From assembly GCF_900115675.1 (NCBI RefSeq), contig NZ_FOXI01000010.1:1-64000 (forward strand): a stretch of DNA of 64,000 bases, given 5' to 3'. The notes below the pieces were generated by a model. That model worked only from the letters and a program-made list of their open reading frames with translations. It searched no databases and was not told the DNA's origin. Both the position numbers and the translations under genes were made by a program. Below, one piece after another: positions 46,489 to 55,462 of the stretch (the first letter of the stretch is position 1; every line of letters begins with the position of its first letter). Source of the DNA: Halolamina pelagica (lineage in GTDB: Archaea; Halobacteriota; Halobacteria; Halobacteriales; Haloferacaceae).

Positions 46489-48951
46489 ATGTCGCGACTT
46501 CCCGCCCTCCAACGTGACTCCATCAGGGTGCTCCACGTCGACGACGACGAGCAGATGCGGACGCTGCTGCGAGATAGCCTCGAGCACGTCGAGGGGGAGT
46601 TCGATGTGCAGTCGGTCGGTGACCCGACCGCCGCGCTCGATCTGATCGACGAGCGCGTCGACTGCGTCGTCTCGGACTACGAGATGCCCGGGATGAACGG
46701 GCTGGAGCTTCTGCGGACGGTCCGGGAGGAGTGGCCCGATCTCCCGTTCATCCTCCTCACGGGTCGCGGTTCGGAGAGCGTCGCGAGCGAGGCGGTCTCC
46801 GCCGGCCTCACGGACTACTTCCGGAAGTCGGACGTCGCCGGGCAGTTCCCCGTGTTGGCCCAACGCGTCGAGACTGCCGTCGAGGCGGAACGCGCCGAGG
46901 TGAGCTACCGGGAGCTGTTTCGGAAGGCCGCCGACGGCATCGCGCTGAACGATCCGGAGACGGGGGCGTTCGTCGACGCCAACCCCGTGTTCCGGGAGAT
47001 GCTCGAACTCGACCGGTCCGAGCTGATGGGAATGGGTATCTCCGACATCGGGACGATCCCGCCACAGCGGGAACAGGAGACGACGCTGCTCGACCGTCTC
47101 CGGCAGGCGGCTCGGGAGGGGGCCACTAGCACCGAGGAGTGTAGCCGGCGGGCGGACGGCGAGCGCTTCTGGATGGAACTCCAGTTCAAACCGATCGAGA
47201 TCAAGGGCAGCACGTTCGTGCTGACACAGGCCCGACAGATCACCGACCGGAAGCGCTACGAACAGACGCTTTCGGCGCTCCACGCCGCGGTGACGGAGAT
47301 CGTGAGCGCCGAGAAACCCCGGCAGGTGACCGGGAGCGTTCTCTCGACGGTCACGGACCTCCTCGGGGTCGACCGGGCCGTGGTGTTCCGCCACGACCCC
47401 GCCGAGAACTGGTTGGCGGTCGTCGACGCCACGTCACCCGACGGTGTGGTGACGGAGGTCCCGCTCGACCCCGAGAGGCCGATCGCCCGCGCGTTCATCG
47501 ACGGCGAGCCGGTCGACATCCGCGACTCCGTTTTCGAACGCGGGGGCGTCGACGAGCCAGCCCACGCGGCCGCGCTCCCGATCGGGGCCGCGGGCGTGCT
47601 GGTCGTCGAGTACGACCACGCGCGATCGTTCGACGACGACCAGGAGTTCGCGCAGATACTCACGAACGCGGCAGCCGCCGCCTTCGAGCGGATCGAGAAG
47701 GCCCGGGAGGCCCACTCGAGCAAGGCGGCACTCCGCGAGCAGACGAACGAGCTACAACGGCTGGAACGGCTCAACGCGACGCTGCGAGGCCTCAACGAGA
47801 CGCTGCTCCGCACCGACACCCGGGCCGAGGTGTTCGAGGCGGTCTGTGACCAACTGGGCCGGATCGAGGGGATCAAACTCGCGTGGATCGGCACCCCGAC
47901 CGACGGGAAGCAACTCGACCGGCGCGCGTGGGCCGGGGAGATCCCGCAGTATCTCGACGCCGTCCCGCTCGATCTCGAGACGAGCGACGAACCGGCCGTC
48001 GTCGCGGTGCGCACCGGTACACGCGTCCACGTCGAGAACGCGGCGACCGGCCTCACCCGGGAGCCGTGGCGACGGGCGGCGCTTTCCAACGGCGTCGAGT
48101 CGGTGATGGCGGTTCCCATCGAGGTCGGCGGCGCCACCGATGCGGTGCTCTCGCTGCTGGCGACCGACCGGACGACGTTCGACGAGCAGTTCGCCGATCT
48201 GCTCTCGGCAGTCGCGGCGACGGTCGGGGAGACGCTCCACTCGATCGAGCAGCGTCGAGGACTGCGGTCCGACGAGACTGTCGAACTCGAGTTCGACATC
48301 CCGCCGGAACGCCACCTGCTCGGCCGCCTCGCGACCAGTACCGGTGCCGAGTTCGCGGTGCAGGGCGTAATTCCCGAACCCGACGGCCGATCCCGGGTGT
48401 TCCTCGCGGTCGAGGGTGCCGATCCCGCGGATGTTGCGGCCGCTGGCGCGTCGATGAGTACGATCAGTGAAGCGACGGTCGCAGCCGACGACGACGGCGC
48501 GGGTGTCGTCGAGTTGGCTCTCGAGATATCGGTGCTCGGTACCGGGATCCGGGAGTACGCCCTTCGGCTCGGAGACCTCTCCGCAACGTCCGAGACCGTT
48601 CGCGCGAGCGTCGACGTCGCCCGGGCCGAGGACGTTCGACCGGTCGTCACGGCCGTCCTCGACCGGTTCGACGGCTCGCGGCTGCTCGCAAAGCGGACCC
48701 AGGCCGACACGCGCTCGGACTACGACCGTCTGCTCGCGTTCCGGAAGTCGCTCACGTCGCGCCAGCGCGAGGTGCTCCACGTGGCGTACCTCAGCGGTTA
48801 CTTCAAGTCGCCGCGCCAGTGCACCGGCGACGACCTGGCGGAGAAACTCGGCATCTCCTCGCAAGCGGTGTATCAACACATCCGTCAGGCCGAGCGGGCC
48901 CTGTTCGAGGAGGCGTTCCGACAGGTGCTGTCCGTTTCGGCGTCCGAGTGA
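46489..48951 (+). CDS. Multi-sensor Bat-type transcription regulator
   Basis: An 820-residue protein. Order: receiver (about 12-130, phosphoacceptor D63 in SDYEMPGMNG), PAS (about 140-255), GAF (about 265-405), a coiled linker, GAF (about 430-595, LAWIGTPTDGKQLDRRAWAG), bacterioopsin-activator domain (about 600-755), and HTH_10 (LTSRQREVLHVAYLSGYF; LAEKLGISSQAVYQHIRQAE). It has no kinase domain, so it is a one-component regulator with a receiver input. It ends 116 bases before the pilin-like operon on the same strand. Confidence 0.88.
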   Translation: MSRLPALQRDSIRVLHVDDDEQMRTLLRDSLEHVEGEFDVQSVGDPTAALDLIDERVDCVVSDYEMPGMNGLELLRTVREEWPDLPFILLTGRGSESVASEAVSAGLTDYFRKSDVAGQFPVLAQRVETAVEAERAEVSYRELFRKAADGIALNDPETGAFVDANPVFREMLELDRSELMGMGISDIGTIPPQREQETTLLDRLRQAAREGATSTEECSRRADGERFWMELQFKPIEIKGSTFVLTQARQITDRKRYEQTLSALHAAVTEIVSAEKPRQVTGSVLSTVTDLLGVDRAVVFRHDPAENWLAVVDATSPDGVVTEVPLDPERPIARAFIDGEPVDIRDSVFERGGVDEPAHAAALPIGAAGVLVVEYDHARSFDDDQEFAQILTNAAAAAFERIEKAREAHSSKAALREQTNELQRLERLNATLRGLNETLLRTDTRAEVFEAVCDQLGRIEGIKLAWIGTPTDGKQLDRRAWAGEIPQYLDAVPLDLETSDEPAVVAVRTGTRVHVENAATGLTREPWRRAALSNGVESVMAVPIEVGGATDAVLSLLATDRTTFDEQFADLLSAVAATVGETLHSIEQRRGLRSDETVELEFDIPPERHLLGRLATSTGAEFAVQGVIPEPDGRSRVFLAVEGADPADVAAAGASMSTISEATVAADDDGAGVVELALEISVLGTGIREYALRLGDLSATSETVRASVDVARAEDVRPVVTAVLDRFDGSRLLAKRTQADTRSDYDRLLAFRKSLTSRQREVLHVAYLSGYFKSPRQCTGDDLAEKLGISSQAVYQHIRQAERALFEEAFRQVLSVSASE

Positions 48952-48990: not shown

Positions 48991-49030
48991 CTACCCAACC
49001 CTCGAGTGAGTTGGAAGTTGGCTACCCAAC
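48991..49030 (+). promoter_or_regulatory. Cluster of four CCAAC/GTTGG half-sites
   Basis: CCAAC at 48995-48999, GTTGG at 49010-49014 and 49017-49021, CCAAC at 49026-49030. They build two inverted repeats and a CTACCCAAC direct repeat at 31-base spacing. They lie 38-77 bases before the ATG at 49068. Confidence 0.5.
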
Positions 49031-49067: not shown

Positions 49068-49589
49068 ATGCAACGAAGAACGGTGATTGCAAGCGTTGGA
49101 GCGATCCTCGGAACCAGTGTCGGCACGGCAGCGTACACGAGCGCGACTGTCACCCGTGATGCGACGTTCGCGGTCGCGACGGACGCCTCCTCGGCGCTGA
49201 TCGGCCTCAACGCCGGCACGACGGCAGGTGTCACGGAGAGCGGGGACGCGCTCTCGATCGCGGTTCAGGACCTCAACACGGACGGGACGTTCGTCTACGG
49301 TGACGGGGCGAACATCGACACGTCCCACGCGTTCTCGATTATCAATAACGACGGCTCCGAGCGGTCGTTCACGCTCGGCTACGACACCGCCGGCGTCACG
49401 TTCGAACTGTTCCAGCAGGGGACCGACTGGACGGACGCGACCTCGCTGGGCACCGTCGACAGCACGACGGACGTGACCTGGACTGCGGCTGCCGCCGAGG
49501 AAATCCGTGCGGTCATGACGATCGACACGACCGGTGTCGCGTCGGGTGCGACGGACCTCGACGGGACGCTGACTGTCTCGGCGAACTAA
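49068..49589 (+). CDS. Secreted DUF1102-like protein (candidate TasA/camelysin-type fibre subunit)
   Basis: A 173-residue protein. The N-terminal signal MQRRTVIASVGAILGTSVGTAA is followed by YTSATVTRDATFAVATDASSALIGL, the layout of SipW-dependent signal peptides: a short hydrophobic stretch, a small-residue cleavage site, then an aromatic residue, (S/T), Arg, and Asp-rich strands. The remainder is beta-rich and rich in Thr, Asp and Gly. The SipW-like peptidase gene follows after 17 bases. A fibre or surface-coat role is inferred from this pairing. Confidence 0.75.
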   Translation: MQRRTVIASVGAILGTSVGTAAYTSATVTRDATFAVATDASSALIGLNAGTTAGVTESGDALSIAVQDLNTDGTFVYGDGANIDTSHAFSIINNDGSERSFTLGYDTAGVTFELFQQGTDWTDATSLGTVDSTTDVTWTAAAAEEIRAVMTIDTTGVASGATDLDGTLTVSAN

Positions 49590-49606
49590 TCCGCTCCACC
49601 ATTTCG

Positions 49607-50587
49607 ATGATTCGTCGAGTGTTGGTCCTCTTAGCGGTTGGTAGCGTCCTCGTAGTGGCGCTGCCCGGGACGCCCGTCCAACTCTCGTACGTCTACAGCG
49701 ACAGCATGGAGCCGACGATCGGGACCGGCGACGGCTACGTCGTCGTCCCGGCCGGCGACGTGTCGGTCGGCGACGTCCTCGTGTTCGACTCCGACTACCG
49801 CGGCGAGTACGTCACCCATCGCGTCGTCGACGTCACCGAGGCGGGCTACGTCACACAGGGTGACGCTAACCCCGCGACGGACCAGGCAACCGGCCACCCA
49901 GTCGTCACTTCTGACCGTGTCGTCGGGCAGGTACTCACCCTCGGCGACCGACCGGTGGTGATCCCGGGGCTCGCGAGCGTCGTCTCCCTGCTTTCCACCT
50001 ACTGGCCGCTCGGCGTGCTGGCCGTGCTGCTCGGCGGCGGCCTCCTGGAGCGGAACCCCCGCGCCCGTGACCTCGTGCGCGTCGACGACCTGATCACGCC
50101 GCTCGTCCTCACGACGGTCGTCGGGAGCGCCATCGCACTCGCGTACTCGGCGCCGACGTACACGATGGCGTTCACCGCCGTGGCGACTGACGCCGACGGG
50201 GGGCGCGTCCTCCCGCTCGGCGAAGCCGTGAGCAGGACCATCGAAGTCGCGGCCGGCCCGCGATACACCTACCAGTTCGTCGAGGGGACGGGCGTCACGA
50301 TCGCCGATGTCGCCGCGAACGGCGACGTGTTCGACGTAGTCGTCGACGTCCCCGCACGGGCGGAGCGCGGCGCCTACGACGCGACGGTGACGACGTACTA
50401 CTACCCGGCGGTCCTGCCGTACGGCCTCGTGCGCGCGCTGCACGCGTTCCACCCCGTCACGGCGGCGCTCGCCACGATCGGGACCGTCGTCGCACCGGCG
50501 TACGCCGTCCACCGACTCGCTGTCGACGGCCGGGCACCGATCGAGAGTCGGTCACGGTCACGCACCGCGTGGTGGGACCCGCGATGA
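49607..50587 (+). CDS. SipW-like signal peptidase I
   Basis: A 326-residue membrane peptidase of family S26B. N-terminal membrane helix, then catalytic Ser in YSDSMEPTIGTGDGY. VGDVLVFD and YVTHRVVDV follow, where archaeal/SipW enzymes use His in place of the bacterial Lys. QGDANPATDQ comes next, then two further membrane segments and a C-terminal lumenal-type domain. Located between two presumed substrates, it probably processes them specifically. Its stop overlaps the next start (ATGA). Confidence 0.88.
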   Translation: MIRRVLVLLAVGSVLVVALPGTPVQLSYVYSDSMEPTIGTGDGYVVVPAGDVSVGDVLVFDSDYRGEYVTHRVVDVTEAGYVTQGDANPATDQATGHPVVTSDRVVGQVLTLGDRPVVIPGLASVVSLLSTYWPLGVLAVLLGGGLLERNPRARDLVRVDDLITPLVLTTVVGSAIALAYSAPTYTMAFTAVATDADGGRVLPLGEAVSRTIEVAAGPRYTYQFVEGTGVTIADVAANGDVFDVVVDVPARAERGAYDATVTTYYYPAVLPYGLVRALHAFHPVTAALATIGTVVAPAYAVHRLAVDGRAPIESRSRSRTAWWDPR

Positions 50588-51078
50588 GCGGACGTTCCCG
50601 CCGTCGGTCCCGCCGTGTACTTCCGGTCGTCGTCCTCCTGACGGCCGTGCTGCTCGTCGGTGCAGCCGTCCTTCCTGCTGCCTCCTACTCGACGGGCGAT
50701 GTCGACCGTGGGGCCGGTGTCGACGTCGTGAACGACCAGGAGGCCTCCTTGTCGCTCGACACGGCCGCGAACGTCAGCGTCGGGACGGTCGACCAACTCG
50801 TCGTCGTCACCAACGGTTTCGAGAGCACGGCGACGGTCTCGGTCTCGCTCACGAGCGCGTCCCCCGCGAACGCGAGTCTGGTCGTCGGTGGCGCGTCGGT
50901 CGGTGACGCCTACAGCACCGACCTCGGGCCGGGCGCGAGCCTCACCGTCGACGTCGACGTTCCCGACGACGACTCGCTCGACGGGAGCGAAATCGTGTTC
51001 GACGCTGCCGCAGAAACGGGCGACATCGACGCCACGGCCTCCGGCAGACGCGTACCGATCGAGGGGACCGCCACGTGA
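50584..51078 (+). CDS. Second secreted SipW-substrate-like protein
   Basis: A 164-residue protein from ATG 50584. The signal (RRVLPVVVLLTAVLLVGAAVLPAA) is followed by SYSTGDVDRGAGVDVVNDQEASLSL. That aligns with the start of the mature 49068 protein: Tyr-Ser/Thr, then V-x-R, D-x2-A-x-L. The rest is a beta-rich domain of Ser/Thr/Val/Asp. It overlaps the peptidase upstream and the DUF5305-like gene downstream by 4 bases each. Confidence 0.7.
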   Translation: MSGRSRRRSRRVLPVVVLLTAVLLVGAAVLPAASYSTGDVDRGAGVDVVNDQEASLSLDTAANVSVGTVDQLVVVTNGFESTATVSVSLTSASPANASLVVGGASVGDAYSTDLGPGASLTVDVDVPDDDSLDGSEIVFDAAAETGDIDATASGRRVPIEGTAT

Positions 51079-52154
51079 TTCCGGCCGCGAAGATCCGCTA
51101 CGTCGTGGCGACCCACGGCCGGCCGCTCCGGACCCTCGGCGTCGTGTTGCTCGTGGTCGGCGTCGTTGGCGTCGCCGCCACGCTGATGTACCCACCGACG
51201 ACGACGGTGACGGAAGTGACCGACAGCGCAACCGTCGAGACGGGGACGACGATGCGGGCACCGGTCGAGGGCGAGCACGCGATGTACGACGACGGCGAAG
51301 TGCTGACCGACGAACCGGTGTACATCCGCGCGGTCGCCCCGAACCTCTCGGTGACGGCCTCAACCCGATCCCCGCCGGACGGCGTCGACATCGAGCAACG
51401 GCTCTCGATCGTGTACGAGGCGTCGTCGTCCGCGGATGGCGTGTTTCGTGAGCGCCGCGACGTGCTCCGGACGACGACCGACCGCGTTGAGCAGGAGGGC
51501 CAGGCCGTCAACACGACCGTCTCGATCGAGATCGCCGAGATCGCGCGCACGCTGAACACGATGCGCGACGAGATCGGCGACGCCGGCGGGATAACCGCGT
51601 ACCTCCACGTGGAGACTGTGTACGACGGTCCGGAGTACGAGGGGACCCTCGAGAACCGGGCGCCGCTCTCCGTGAGCGAGGACGCCTACCGGCTGCCGAC
51701 GACGGACCTCCGCCAGGACCACCCCACGACCACGTCGGTGACCCAGCCTGACCCCCGGCAGGTGTTCGAGGTACCGCTCCCCGAACTGGGCAGCGTCGTC
51801 GTTCCCCATTGGACGCCCCTGTTCGGCGTGCTGGCCGTGCTTGGCGGGCTGGCGATCGGCGCTGCTCGGTACGGCCGCGAGTTCTCGGTCACCCGCGAAC
51901 GGGCCACCGTCCACCGGCTCCGGTACGCCGAGTGGATCTCGACCGGCGAGCTCCCCGCGACGCTCGCTGCGCACCCCTTCGTCGTTCCGATGGCGTCGCT
52001 CCAGGCGCTCGTCGATGTCGCCATCGACTCCGAGACGCGAGTCGTCCACGACGCCTCTCAGGACTGCTACGCGGTGCTGACGGCAGGCGCGCTGTACGTG
52101 TTCGTTCCGGATGCCGGCAGCGAGGTCGACGATCCGGCGCCAGCAGACGCCTGA
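51075..52154 (+). CDS. DUF5305-like membrane protein
   Basis: A 359-residue protein starting at GTG 51075. One membrane helix near the N-terminus (LGVVLLVVGVVGVAATLMY), a beta-rich outside domain of about 220 residues (YIRAVAPNLSVTASTRSP; TAYLHVETVYDG), a second helix (LFGVLAVLGGLAIGAARYG) and a cytoplasmic tail of about 100 residues. Archaeal DUF5305 genes accompany SipW-like peptidases. It may help assemble or anchor the two secreted proteins; that is inference. Confidence 0.78.
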   Translation: MIPAAKIRYVVATHGRPLRTLGVVLLVVGVVGVAATLMYPPTTTVTEVTDSATVETGTTMRAPVEGEHAMYDDGEVLTDEPVYIRAVAPNLSVTASTRSPPDGVDIEQRLSIVYEASSSADGVFRERRDVLRTTTDRVEQEGQAVNTTVSIEIAEIARTLNTMRDEIGDAGGITAYLHVETVYDGPEYEGTLENRAPLSVSEDAYRLPTTDLRQDHPTTTSVTQPDPRQVFEVPLPELGSVVVPHWTPLFGVLAVLGGLAIGAARYGREFSVTRERATVHRLRYAEWISTGELPATLAAHPFVVPMASLQALVDVAIDSETRVVHDASQDCYAVLTAGALYVFVPDAGSEVDDPAPADA

Positions 52155-53636: not shown

Positions 53637-54626
53637 ATGGATACGGGTTCACTATCGGACGCACGGGGATCGGCCGGCGACGAGCCGGTCGCCATCCAGA
53701 CGAGGGGGCTGACGAAACGCTACGGGGAGGACGTGTTGGCCGTCGACGACCTCGACCTGACGGTGTACGAGGGCGAGATATTCGGCTTTCTCGGCCCCAA
53801 CGGCGCCGGGAAGTCCACGACGATCGACGTGATCATGGACTACGTCAGGCCGTCGGCCGGGAGTGCGACGGTTCTCGGTTTCGACGCCCAGCGGGAGACG
53901 CGAGCGATCCACGAACGGGTCGGTATTCTGCCGGACGGGTACGGCCTCTACGACCGTCTCTCCGGGCGGAAACACCTCGAGTACGCGATCTCGTTGAAAC
54001 GAGCGACCGACGACGTCGACGACCTCCTCGATCGAGTCGGGCTCGACGCGTCGGCTGCCGATCGCGTCGTCGGTGGCTACTCGAAGGGGATGACCCAACG
54101 ATTGGCCCTCGCGATCGCCCTCGTCGGCGACCCGGAGCTACTGATCCTCGACGAGCCGTCGTCGGGACTCGACCCCAACGGCGTCCGTCTCGTCCGTGAG
54201 ATCGCTCGGGACCACGCCGACCGGGGGAGGACGGTCTTCTTCTCGAGCCACATTCTCAGCCAGGTCGAGGCGGTCTGTGACCGCGTCGCGATCCTCAACC
54301 GTGGTCGACTCGTCGCCGTCGACTCGATCGCCGGGCTCCGCGACGCGCTCGGAACTGGGTCGACGGTGACGCTCACGGTCGATTCCGTCCCGGACTCGCT
54401 GACGGTCGCGGCTATCGCCGGCGTCTCCGACGTTGCCGTCGATGACCGAACGATTCGGGTACGCGTCGACGAGGCCACAGCGAAGGTCGACGTGATCGAC
54501 CGCGTCCGCGACGATGGTGCGGCAGTGCTCGACGTGACGATCGAGGAGTCGTCGTTGGAGGACCTGTTCAGCGCCTACACCGGCGATGCGCCCCGGCAGG
54601 TCGGCGCTCCGGAGGGGGAGCGATGA
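53637..54626 (+). CDS. ABC transporter ATP-binding protein
   Basis: A 329-residue ATPase. Walker A GPNGAGKST, Q-loop region GILPDGYGLYDRLSGRKHLEY, signature VGGYSKGMTQRLALAIALVG (LSGGQ replaced by YSKGM), Walker B LLILDEPSSGLDPNG and H-loop VFFSSHILSQVE. The C-terminal 100 residues form the extra domain of ABC-2 exporters. It overlaps the permease gene by 4 bases. Probably a drug, lipid or peptide exporter. Confidence 0.9.
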   Translation: MDTGSLSDARGSAGDEPVAIQTRGLTKRYGEDVLAVDDLDLTVYEGEIFGFLGPNGAGKSTTIDVIMDYVRPSAGSATVLGFDAQRETRAIHERVGILPDGYGLYDRLSGRKHLEYAISLKRATDDVDDLLDRVGLDASAADRVVGGYSKGMTQRLALAIALVGDPELLILDEPSSGLDPNGVRLVREIARDHADRGRTVFFSSHILSQVEAVCDRVAILNRGRLVAVDSIAGLRDALGTGSTVTLTVDSVPDSLTVAAIAGVSDVAVDDRTIRVRVDEATAKVDVIDRVRDDGAAVLDVTIEESSLEDLFSAYTGDAPRQVGAPEGER

Positions 54627-55462
54627 CGGCCGCGCCGATCTGGCTGACGATCGCTCGCAAGGAGTTCGCCGACGCCCTCCGGTCGCGCATGATCTGGGGC
54701 ATCGTCGTGATCATCGCCGTGATGACGTCGCTGTCCGCGGGTGTCTCCCTCCTCGTGCCCGACGTCGATGGCGGTGTCGAGATGGCGATCGGCGGCGCGT
54801 CGCAGTTCGCGGGGCTGCTCGTCCCCATCATGGCGCTGATCGCCGCCTACCTCGCGATCTCCGGCGAACGGGAGTCGGGGAGCCTGAAGGTGATCCTCGG
54901 GCTCCCGCCGTCGCGGGGCGAAGTGCTCTTCGGGAAGTTCCTCGGCCGGAGCGGTGTGGTCGCGATCGGACTCACGCTGGGGTTCGCGGTCTCGGGTGTC
55001 GTCACGGCGGCACTCTACGGCGGCCTCCCCGTGGGGGCGTTCGTTGGAACGACGATCCTGACCGTCCTTCTCGGCGTTTCGTTCGTCGGCATCGCCATCG
55101 GGATCTCCGCCGTCACGAAGACGCGATCCCGGGCGATGACGCTGGCGATCACGGCGTACCTCGGGCTGACGCTGCTCTGGGACCTGGCCCCAAACGCGGT
55201 TCACTTGCTCGTCACCGGCGAGATGCCCGGCGAAGTCGTGCCCGGGTGGTTCCTGCTCCTGCAGGGGTTCAGTCCGACCGGGGCGTACAACGCGCTCGTC
55301 CAGCGGCTGTTGCTCGGCGGCGGAACTGCCGTGGAAGCGCGACTCGGCGGCCCAGCACCGGGGTACCTCGATCCGGCGGTGTTCGTGGTCATCATGCTCG
55401 CTTGGGCTGTCGTCCCGCTCGTCGCCGGGTATCTCACGTTCCGCCGAGCCGACCTGAGCTAA
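54623..55462 (+). CDS. ABC-2 type permease
   Basis: A 279-residue protein with six hydrophobic segments (MIWGIVVIIAVMTSLSAGVS; FAGLLVPIMALIAAYLAISG; VVAIGLTLGFAVSGVVTAALY; FVGIAIGISAVTKTRSRAMTLAI and others). The ABC-2 feature GERESGSLKVILGLPPSR follows helix 2. It forms a half-transporter with the ATPase upstream. Substrate unknown. Confidence 0.88.
   Translation: MTAAPIWLTIARKEFADALRSRMIWGIVVIIAVMTSLSAGVSLLVPDVDGGVEMAIGGASQFAGLLVPIMALIAAYLAISGERESGSLKVILGLPPSRGEVLFGKFLGRSGVVAIGLTLGFAVSGVVTAALYGGLPVGAFVGTTILTVLLGVSFVGIAIGISAVTKTRSRAMTLAITAYLGLTLLWDLAPNAVHLLVTGEMPGEVVPGWFLLLQGFSPTGAYNALVQRLLLGGGTAVEARLGGPAPGYLDPAVFVVIMLAWAVVPLVAGYLTFRRADLS

Follow-up and report, generated by a model that had tools for sequence, protein, structure and literature searches.

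A four-gene operon of the haloarchaeon Halolamina pelagica is likely to be a compact, divergent operon of the Taf/DUF1102 type that encodes a donor-strand fimbria. It lies in a window (the whole stretch of DNA analyzed) of 64,000 nucleotides, positions 1 to 64,000 of contig NZ_FOXI01000010.1. The RefSeq labels of the four genes are, in order, hypothetical protein, signal peptidase I, hypothetical protein, and DUF5305, and the spacing between successive genes is 17, -4, and -4 bp. The preliminary description of this DNA, which proposed four tightly spaced genes, was right about all four, each of which is present on the + strand, but it overlooked the Bat-type regulator upstream, the Taf fimbriae as the nearer known system, and the likelihood that B is an adhesin. 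The features are as follows.

46489 to 48951, + strand: Bat-type regulator, 820 amino acids, receiver-PAS-GAF-GAF-BAT-HTH_10 (Pfam)
48991 to 48999 and 49022 to 49030, + strand: two direct repeats of CTACCCAAC, 31 bp apart, in the promoter region of A
49068 to 52154, + strand: four-gene operon A-SipW-B-DUF5305
49068 to 49589, + strand: gene A, candidate major fimbrial subunit, 173 amino acids
49131 to 49190, + strand: mature N-terminus of A (AYTSATVTRDATFAVATDAS), candidate donor strand
49607 to 50587, + strand: SipW-like signal peptidase, 326 amino acids
50584 to 51078, + strand: gene B, putative minor, tip, or initiator subunit, 164 amino acids
50683 to 50742, + strand: mature N-terminus of B (SYSTGDVDRGAGVDVVNDQE), with the motif as in A (sequence alignments)
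51075 to 52154, + strand: DUF5305 membrane protein, 359 amino acids, GTG start

Gene maps place the strict order A-SipW-B-DUF5305, often with overlapping genes, in 29 distinct loci from several haloarchaeal families, with Haloferax, Halorubrum, Halohasta, Halonotius, Halorientalis, Haloarcula, Salinibaculum, and Halospeciosus among the genera, and the four genes are kept together in relatives. Halarchaeum has a plasmid copy of this order, and on a Halobaculum plasmid the B position is occupied by a RefSeq hypothetical protein that was missed by the gene finder used here. One cluster (L063) has no B. A DUF5305-like protein is encoded in 137 of the 170 genomes of the family, and strong A orthologs (E < 1e-27) are patchily distributed (20 of 292 genomes of the class). 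H. pelagica itself has a second SipW-DUF5305 locus on another contig (L010, C17:300500-313000), where the cluster consists of DUF5305, a SipW-like peptidase, a 280-amino-acid membrane protein, and a 493-amino-acid PGF-pre-PGF protein, with a 182-amino-acid pilin-like protein close by. Several further DUF1102-like proteins are encoded in the same genome; at one locus (L011, C22:125000-134000), four tandem DUF1102/Taf-like proteins have Tat-like signals, and no peptidase gene was seen beside them. Downstream of the operon in the window is an ABC transporter ATPase and permease pair (53637 to 55462), and in the Haloferax massiliensis cluster (L045) an ABC ATPase gene with a similar N-terminus is likewise downstream.

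The A protein has a signal sequence with RR close to the N-terminus and a predicted cleavage site after residue 21, between GTA and AYTS. The first 20 residues of mature A are its most conserved 20-residue stretch (permutation P value of 0.027). Although A alone has no direct Pfam match to DUF1102 (PF06510), the earlier assignment of A as DUF1102-like stands by way of its relatives: 5 of the 32 members of the A family match PF06510, and A orthologs align with DUF1102-like proteins from the same genome and its relatives over 148 columns, the whole length (hhalign, 98.5%; E = 1.9e-15). The DUF1102-like profile matches the 215-residue PDB entry 9P0A, named "Pilin," with an E value of 5e-16, and the pooled A profile also matches it (E = 8e-6), with the alignment in register from mature residue 1 onward. 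Family profiles were required for this, as PDB sequence searches with single A or single B gave no match. Among the NCBIfam models, 9P0A matches TafE only, and weakly, and when plasmids were searched with the 9P0A pilin, none matched. Based on these profile comparisons, A is a member of the DUF1102/Taf pilin superfamily.

For B, cleavage is predicted after residue 33, between PAA and SYST. The matching N-termini of A and B given in the preliminary description reflect genuine homology, since B matches the A/DUF1102 profiles at 96 to 97% (hhalign; best E value, 4e-10) and the control proteins from the cluster reach only 0.1 to 0.5%. The motif D-x2-A-x-L that had been given for both proteins is exact in B, but A has D-x3-A-L. 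Mature B without its first 20 residues still matches the same profiles at 37 to 91%. These matches, together with the clean negative controls, indicate that the homology of B to A reaches past the signal region. Two B homologs are fused to further domains, one to a Laminin_G_3 domain (L056:7181-8368; Pfam) and the other to two Malectin domains and a CBM35 domain (L204:6626-8494). The presence of lectin domains on relatives of B suggests that B may be an adhesive end subunit.

The N-terminal motif lies at the predicted cleavage site, where a preference of the peptidase could explain its conservation, and the AlphaFold2 (AF2) model of A is a compact monomer. Both observations are consistent with A and B being secreted surface proteins that do not polymerize, for example an envelope-associated adhesin pair, that are matured by the SipW-like peptidase and whose motif serves for peptidase recognition only. 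However, conservation continues through residues 18 to 26, well beyond the cleavage site, the remainder of A is homologous to the 9P0A pilin and to Taf-type proteins, and the homology between A and B extends past the first 20 residues. We therefore regard a pair of nonpolymerizing proteins as unlikely and favor polymerizing subunits.

The AF2 model of A, made with 32 sequences, is all beta (pLDDT, 82.8), and residues 1 to 9 of mature A fall below a pLDDT of 50 in this monomer model. Its Foldseek neighbors include FimA, the Pyrodictium cannula (probability, 0.99; TM-score, 0.49), and the Sulfolobus thread, all of which are donor-strand fibers. Structure prediction thus agrees with the proposed fiber subunit in giving an all-beta monomer with a free N-terminus, but the TM-scores of the model to donor-strand pilins are low (0.3 to 0.5), and generic beta domains match as well. 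TasA and AbpA are absent from the best 50 of 1,576 Foldseek matches. This bears on whether A instead truly belongs to the TasA/CalY/AbpA lineage and forms a biofilm matrix fiber of the TasA type, as the SipW-like peptidase in the operon, a gene content resembling that of tapA-sipW-tasA (PMC9674648), and the beta fold of A could suggest. PF12389 (TasA/CalY) has no match anywhere in the genome, although the B. subtilis control was positive, and none of the sequences in the alignments of A, B, and DUF1102 matches it. Membership of A in the TasA family by Pfam was rejected on this basis. In addition, the Taf/9P0A match is far stronger. A TasA-lineage origin of A is thus quite unlikely, and the label "TasA-type," given to this operon in the preliminary description, is not supported.

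The peptidase matches TIGR02228 above the cutoff of that model (E = 4e-19) and matches the Bacillus SipW model NF046067 over residues 24 to 109 at E = 3e-11, below that model's cutoff. His71, Asp86, and Asp92 do not vary among 32 relatives, and Ser33 is present in every relative whose gene start is complete. The protein has the features of an archaeal signal peptidase I, namely, a catalytic Ser with His (not Lys) and an Asp in the last box, so the SipW-like peptidase with an archaeal Ser/His pair is confirmed. An N-terminal transmembrane (TM) segment is followed by the Ser33/His71 catalytic domain, more TM segments, and an additional domain at the C-terminus. With this domain the protein extends well beyond the 189 positions of the Bacillus model.

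The gene for the Bat-type regulator ends 116 bp upstream of A and probably controls the operon. It is counted in the unit because a genome from another family of the order (G355) has the same five-gene order, regulator-A-SipW-B-DUF5305. The two five-gene modules align at the DNA level over 5.7 kb, with identities of 62% (regulator), 85% (A), 71% (SipW), 54 to 57% (B), and 58 to 60% (DUF5305). In contrast, a cluster from the same genus is only 33 to 41% identical to the window cluster, with A at 33%. Since A is 85% identical in another family and 33% identical within the genus, horizontal spread of the five-gene module would be the simplest reading. In single-sequence searches, 20 of 32 clusters have a regulatory gene (regulator, kinase, or receiver) no more than two genes away, with HTH_10 in nine; such genes make up 20% of near neighbors versus 8% of genes farther off (P = 0.0015, without phylogenetic correction). 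The two CTACCCAAC repeats upstream of A are the sole copies in the window, and each is near GTTGG. The expected number is 0.07, for a pattern that was picked after inspection, and conservation of the repeat does not extend to the G355 copy, the nearest relative. At most, these repeats might be a putative operator.

The fourth gene was described as DUF5305-like, and its product matches PF17231 with an E value of 4e-30 (105 bits; cutoff, 29). In the AF2 model, which is of high confidence (pLDDT, 89.8; pTM, 0.57), TM1 is followed by a long-stranded beta ectodomain (about residues 42 to 243), TM2, and a small conserved cytoplasmic domain. The Foldseek matches are Fn3/Ig-like domains, from which no specific function follows. 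The collection was scanned for DUF5305 with a five-sequence alignment, as the pooled DUF5305 alignment was too divergent. Among 80 named DUF5305 loci, a SipW-like gene is near DUF5305 in 71, a pilin-like gene in 69, and both in 62; in the other 9 loci, no SipW-like gene was found within the stretch examined. Mainly because of this constant company, we tentatively suggest that DUF5305 might be a dedicated assembly or anchoring factor of archaeal donor-strand fimbriae that forms a membrane pair with the SipW-type peptidase, in which case the window would hold a very small, self-contained, horizontally mobile version with its own regulator. The conserved cytoplasmic domain and the frequent regulatory genes nearby could also point to a sensor, whose outer domain would detect the fiber or the envelope and whose cytoplasmic domain would signal with the linked regulators, rather than to an assembly factor. 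However, DUF5305 also accompanies SipW and pilin-like genes at loci with no adjacent regulator, and we consider a sensor rather unlikely. Beyond this order, DUF5305 also occurs in families elsewhere in the phylum. The control genome, that of the genetic model Haloferax volcanii, has no DUF5305 match and may therefore be a clean host for reconstitution. At one locus (L118:5818-9636), an open frame of 1,272 amino acids encodes DUF5305 extended at the C-terminus by a very long acidic region.

Taken together, the conserved operon, the 9P0A/Taf homology, and the fold features give good support to the haloarchaeal surface fiber originally proposed, with a pair of related subunits, a peptidase dedicated to them, and a membrane protein for assembly or anchoring. 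In the mechanism that we envision, A and B would be exported with SipW-type signal sequences, and the dedicated Ser-His peptidase would cut both just before the conserved [AS]-[FY]-[ST] N-terminus, at the predicted cleavage sites. The freed N-terminal segment of one subunit would then serve as the donor strand in the beta-sandwich of the next. Most of the fiber would be made of A, and B would be a minor subunit placed at one of its ends, either a tip adhesin or an initiator. DUF5305, with two TM segments and a large Ig-like domain outside the membrane, may organize or anchor assembly beside the peptidase, and the probable switch of the operon is the Bat-type regulator upstream. The fiber might function in adhesion or biofilm formation. 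Four genes of vague annotation thereby become a testable minimal fimbria system, and DUF5305 becomes a candidate assembly factor for archaeal donor-strand fibers.

Compared with known systems, the operon has its closest counterpart in the Taf fimbriae. Chaperone-usher FimA, the Sulfolobus 0406 thread, and the Pyrodictium cannula resemble A in fold class, but no sequence kinship to A was detected, and no usher or chaperone gene was recognized within the operon. The TasA-TapA-SipW fiber of Bacillus and the AbpA pili of Pyrobaculum have in common with the window operon a SipW-type peptidase, a beta-rich subunit with an N-terminal donor-capable segment, and an accessory second subunit (PMC9674648). 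The tapA-sipW-tasA operon differs in having no counterpart of DUF5305. In the literature searched, there was no mention of DUF1102, of DUF5305 with a signal peptidase, or of 9P0A. The 2026 NCBIfam fimbrial models are TafA (NF052520), TafC (NF052521), TafE (NF052522), and TafF (NF052523); A and B fall below the curated cutoffs of all of the NCBIfam Taf models, and neither has an NCBIfam family. Nevertheless, B matches the TafC N-domain at 97.1% (hhalign; E = 6e-11) and at 94.1% after trimming of B. A matches TafE at 96.6% by way of the pooled A4 profile only, compared with 17.7% for A orthologs alone. Loci with TafA above the cutoff have SipW-like and DUF5305 genes in most of the stretches examined. 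Like the window operon, then, Taf loci encode DUF1102-type pilins that carry SipW-type signals, a SipW-like peptidase, DUF5305, and, in TafC, an N-domain homologous to B. The B-like N-terminus of TafC and the SipW and DUF5305 genes in Taf loci identify the window operon as a compact, divergent Taf relative. It differs from Taf in that its four genes run in one direction, genes for TafE and TafF are absent, the subunit genes are not separated by a small HTH gene, and a Bat-type regulator is attached. In addition, B lacks a C-terminal lectin domain, whereas most TafC proteins, judged by eye, run on into a LamG-like region. The Taf/DUF1102 kind of fimbria is already named; the curated models do not cover the compact form of four genes that includes B and DUF5305, and this form extends the Taf kind well past their reach.
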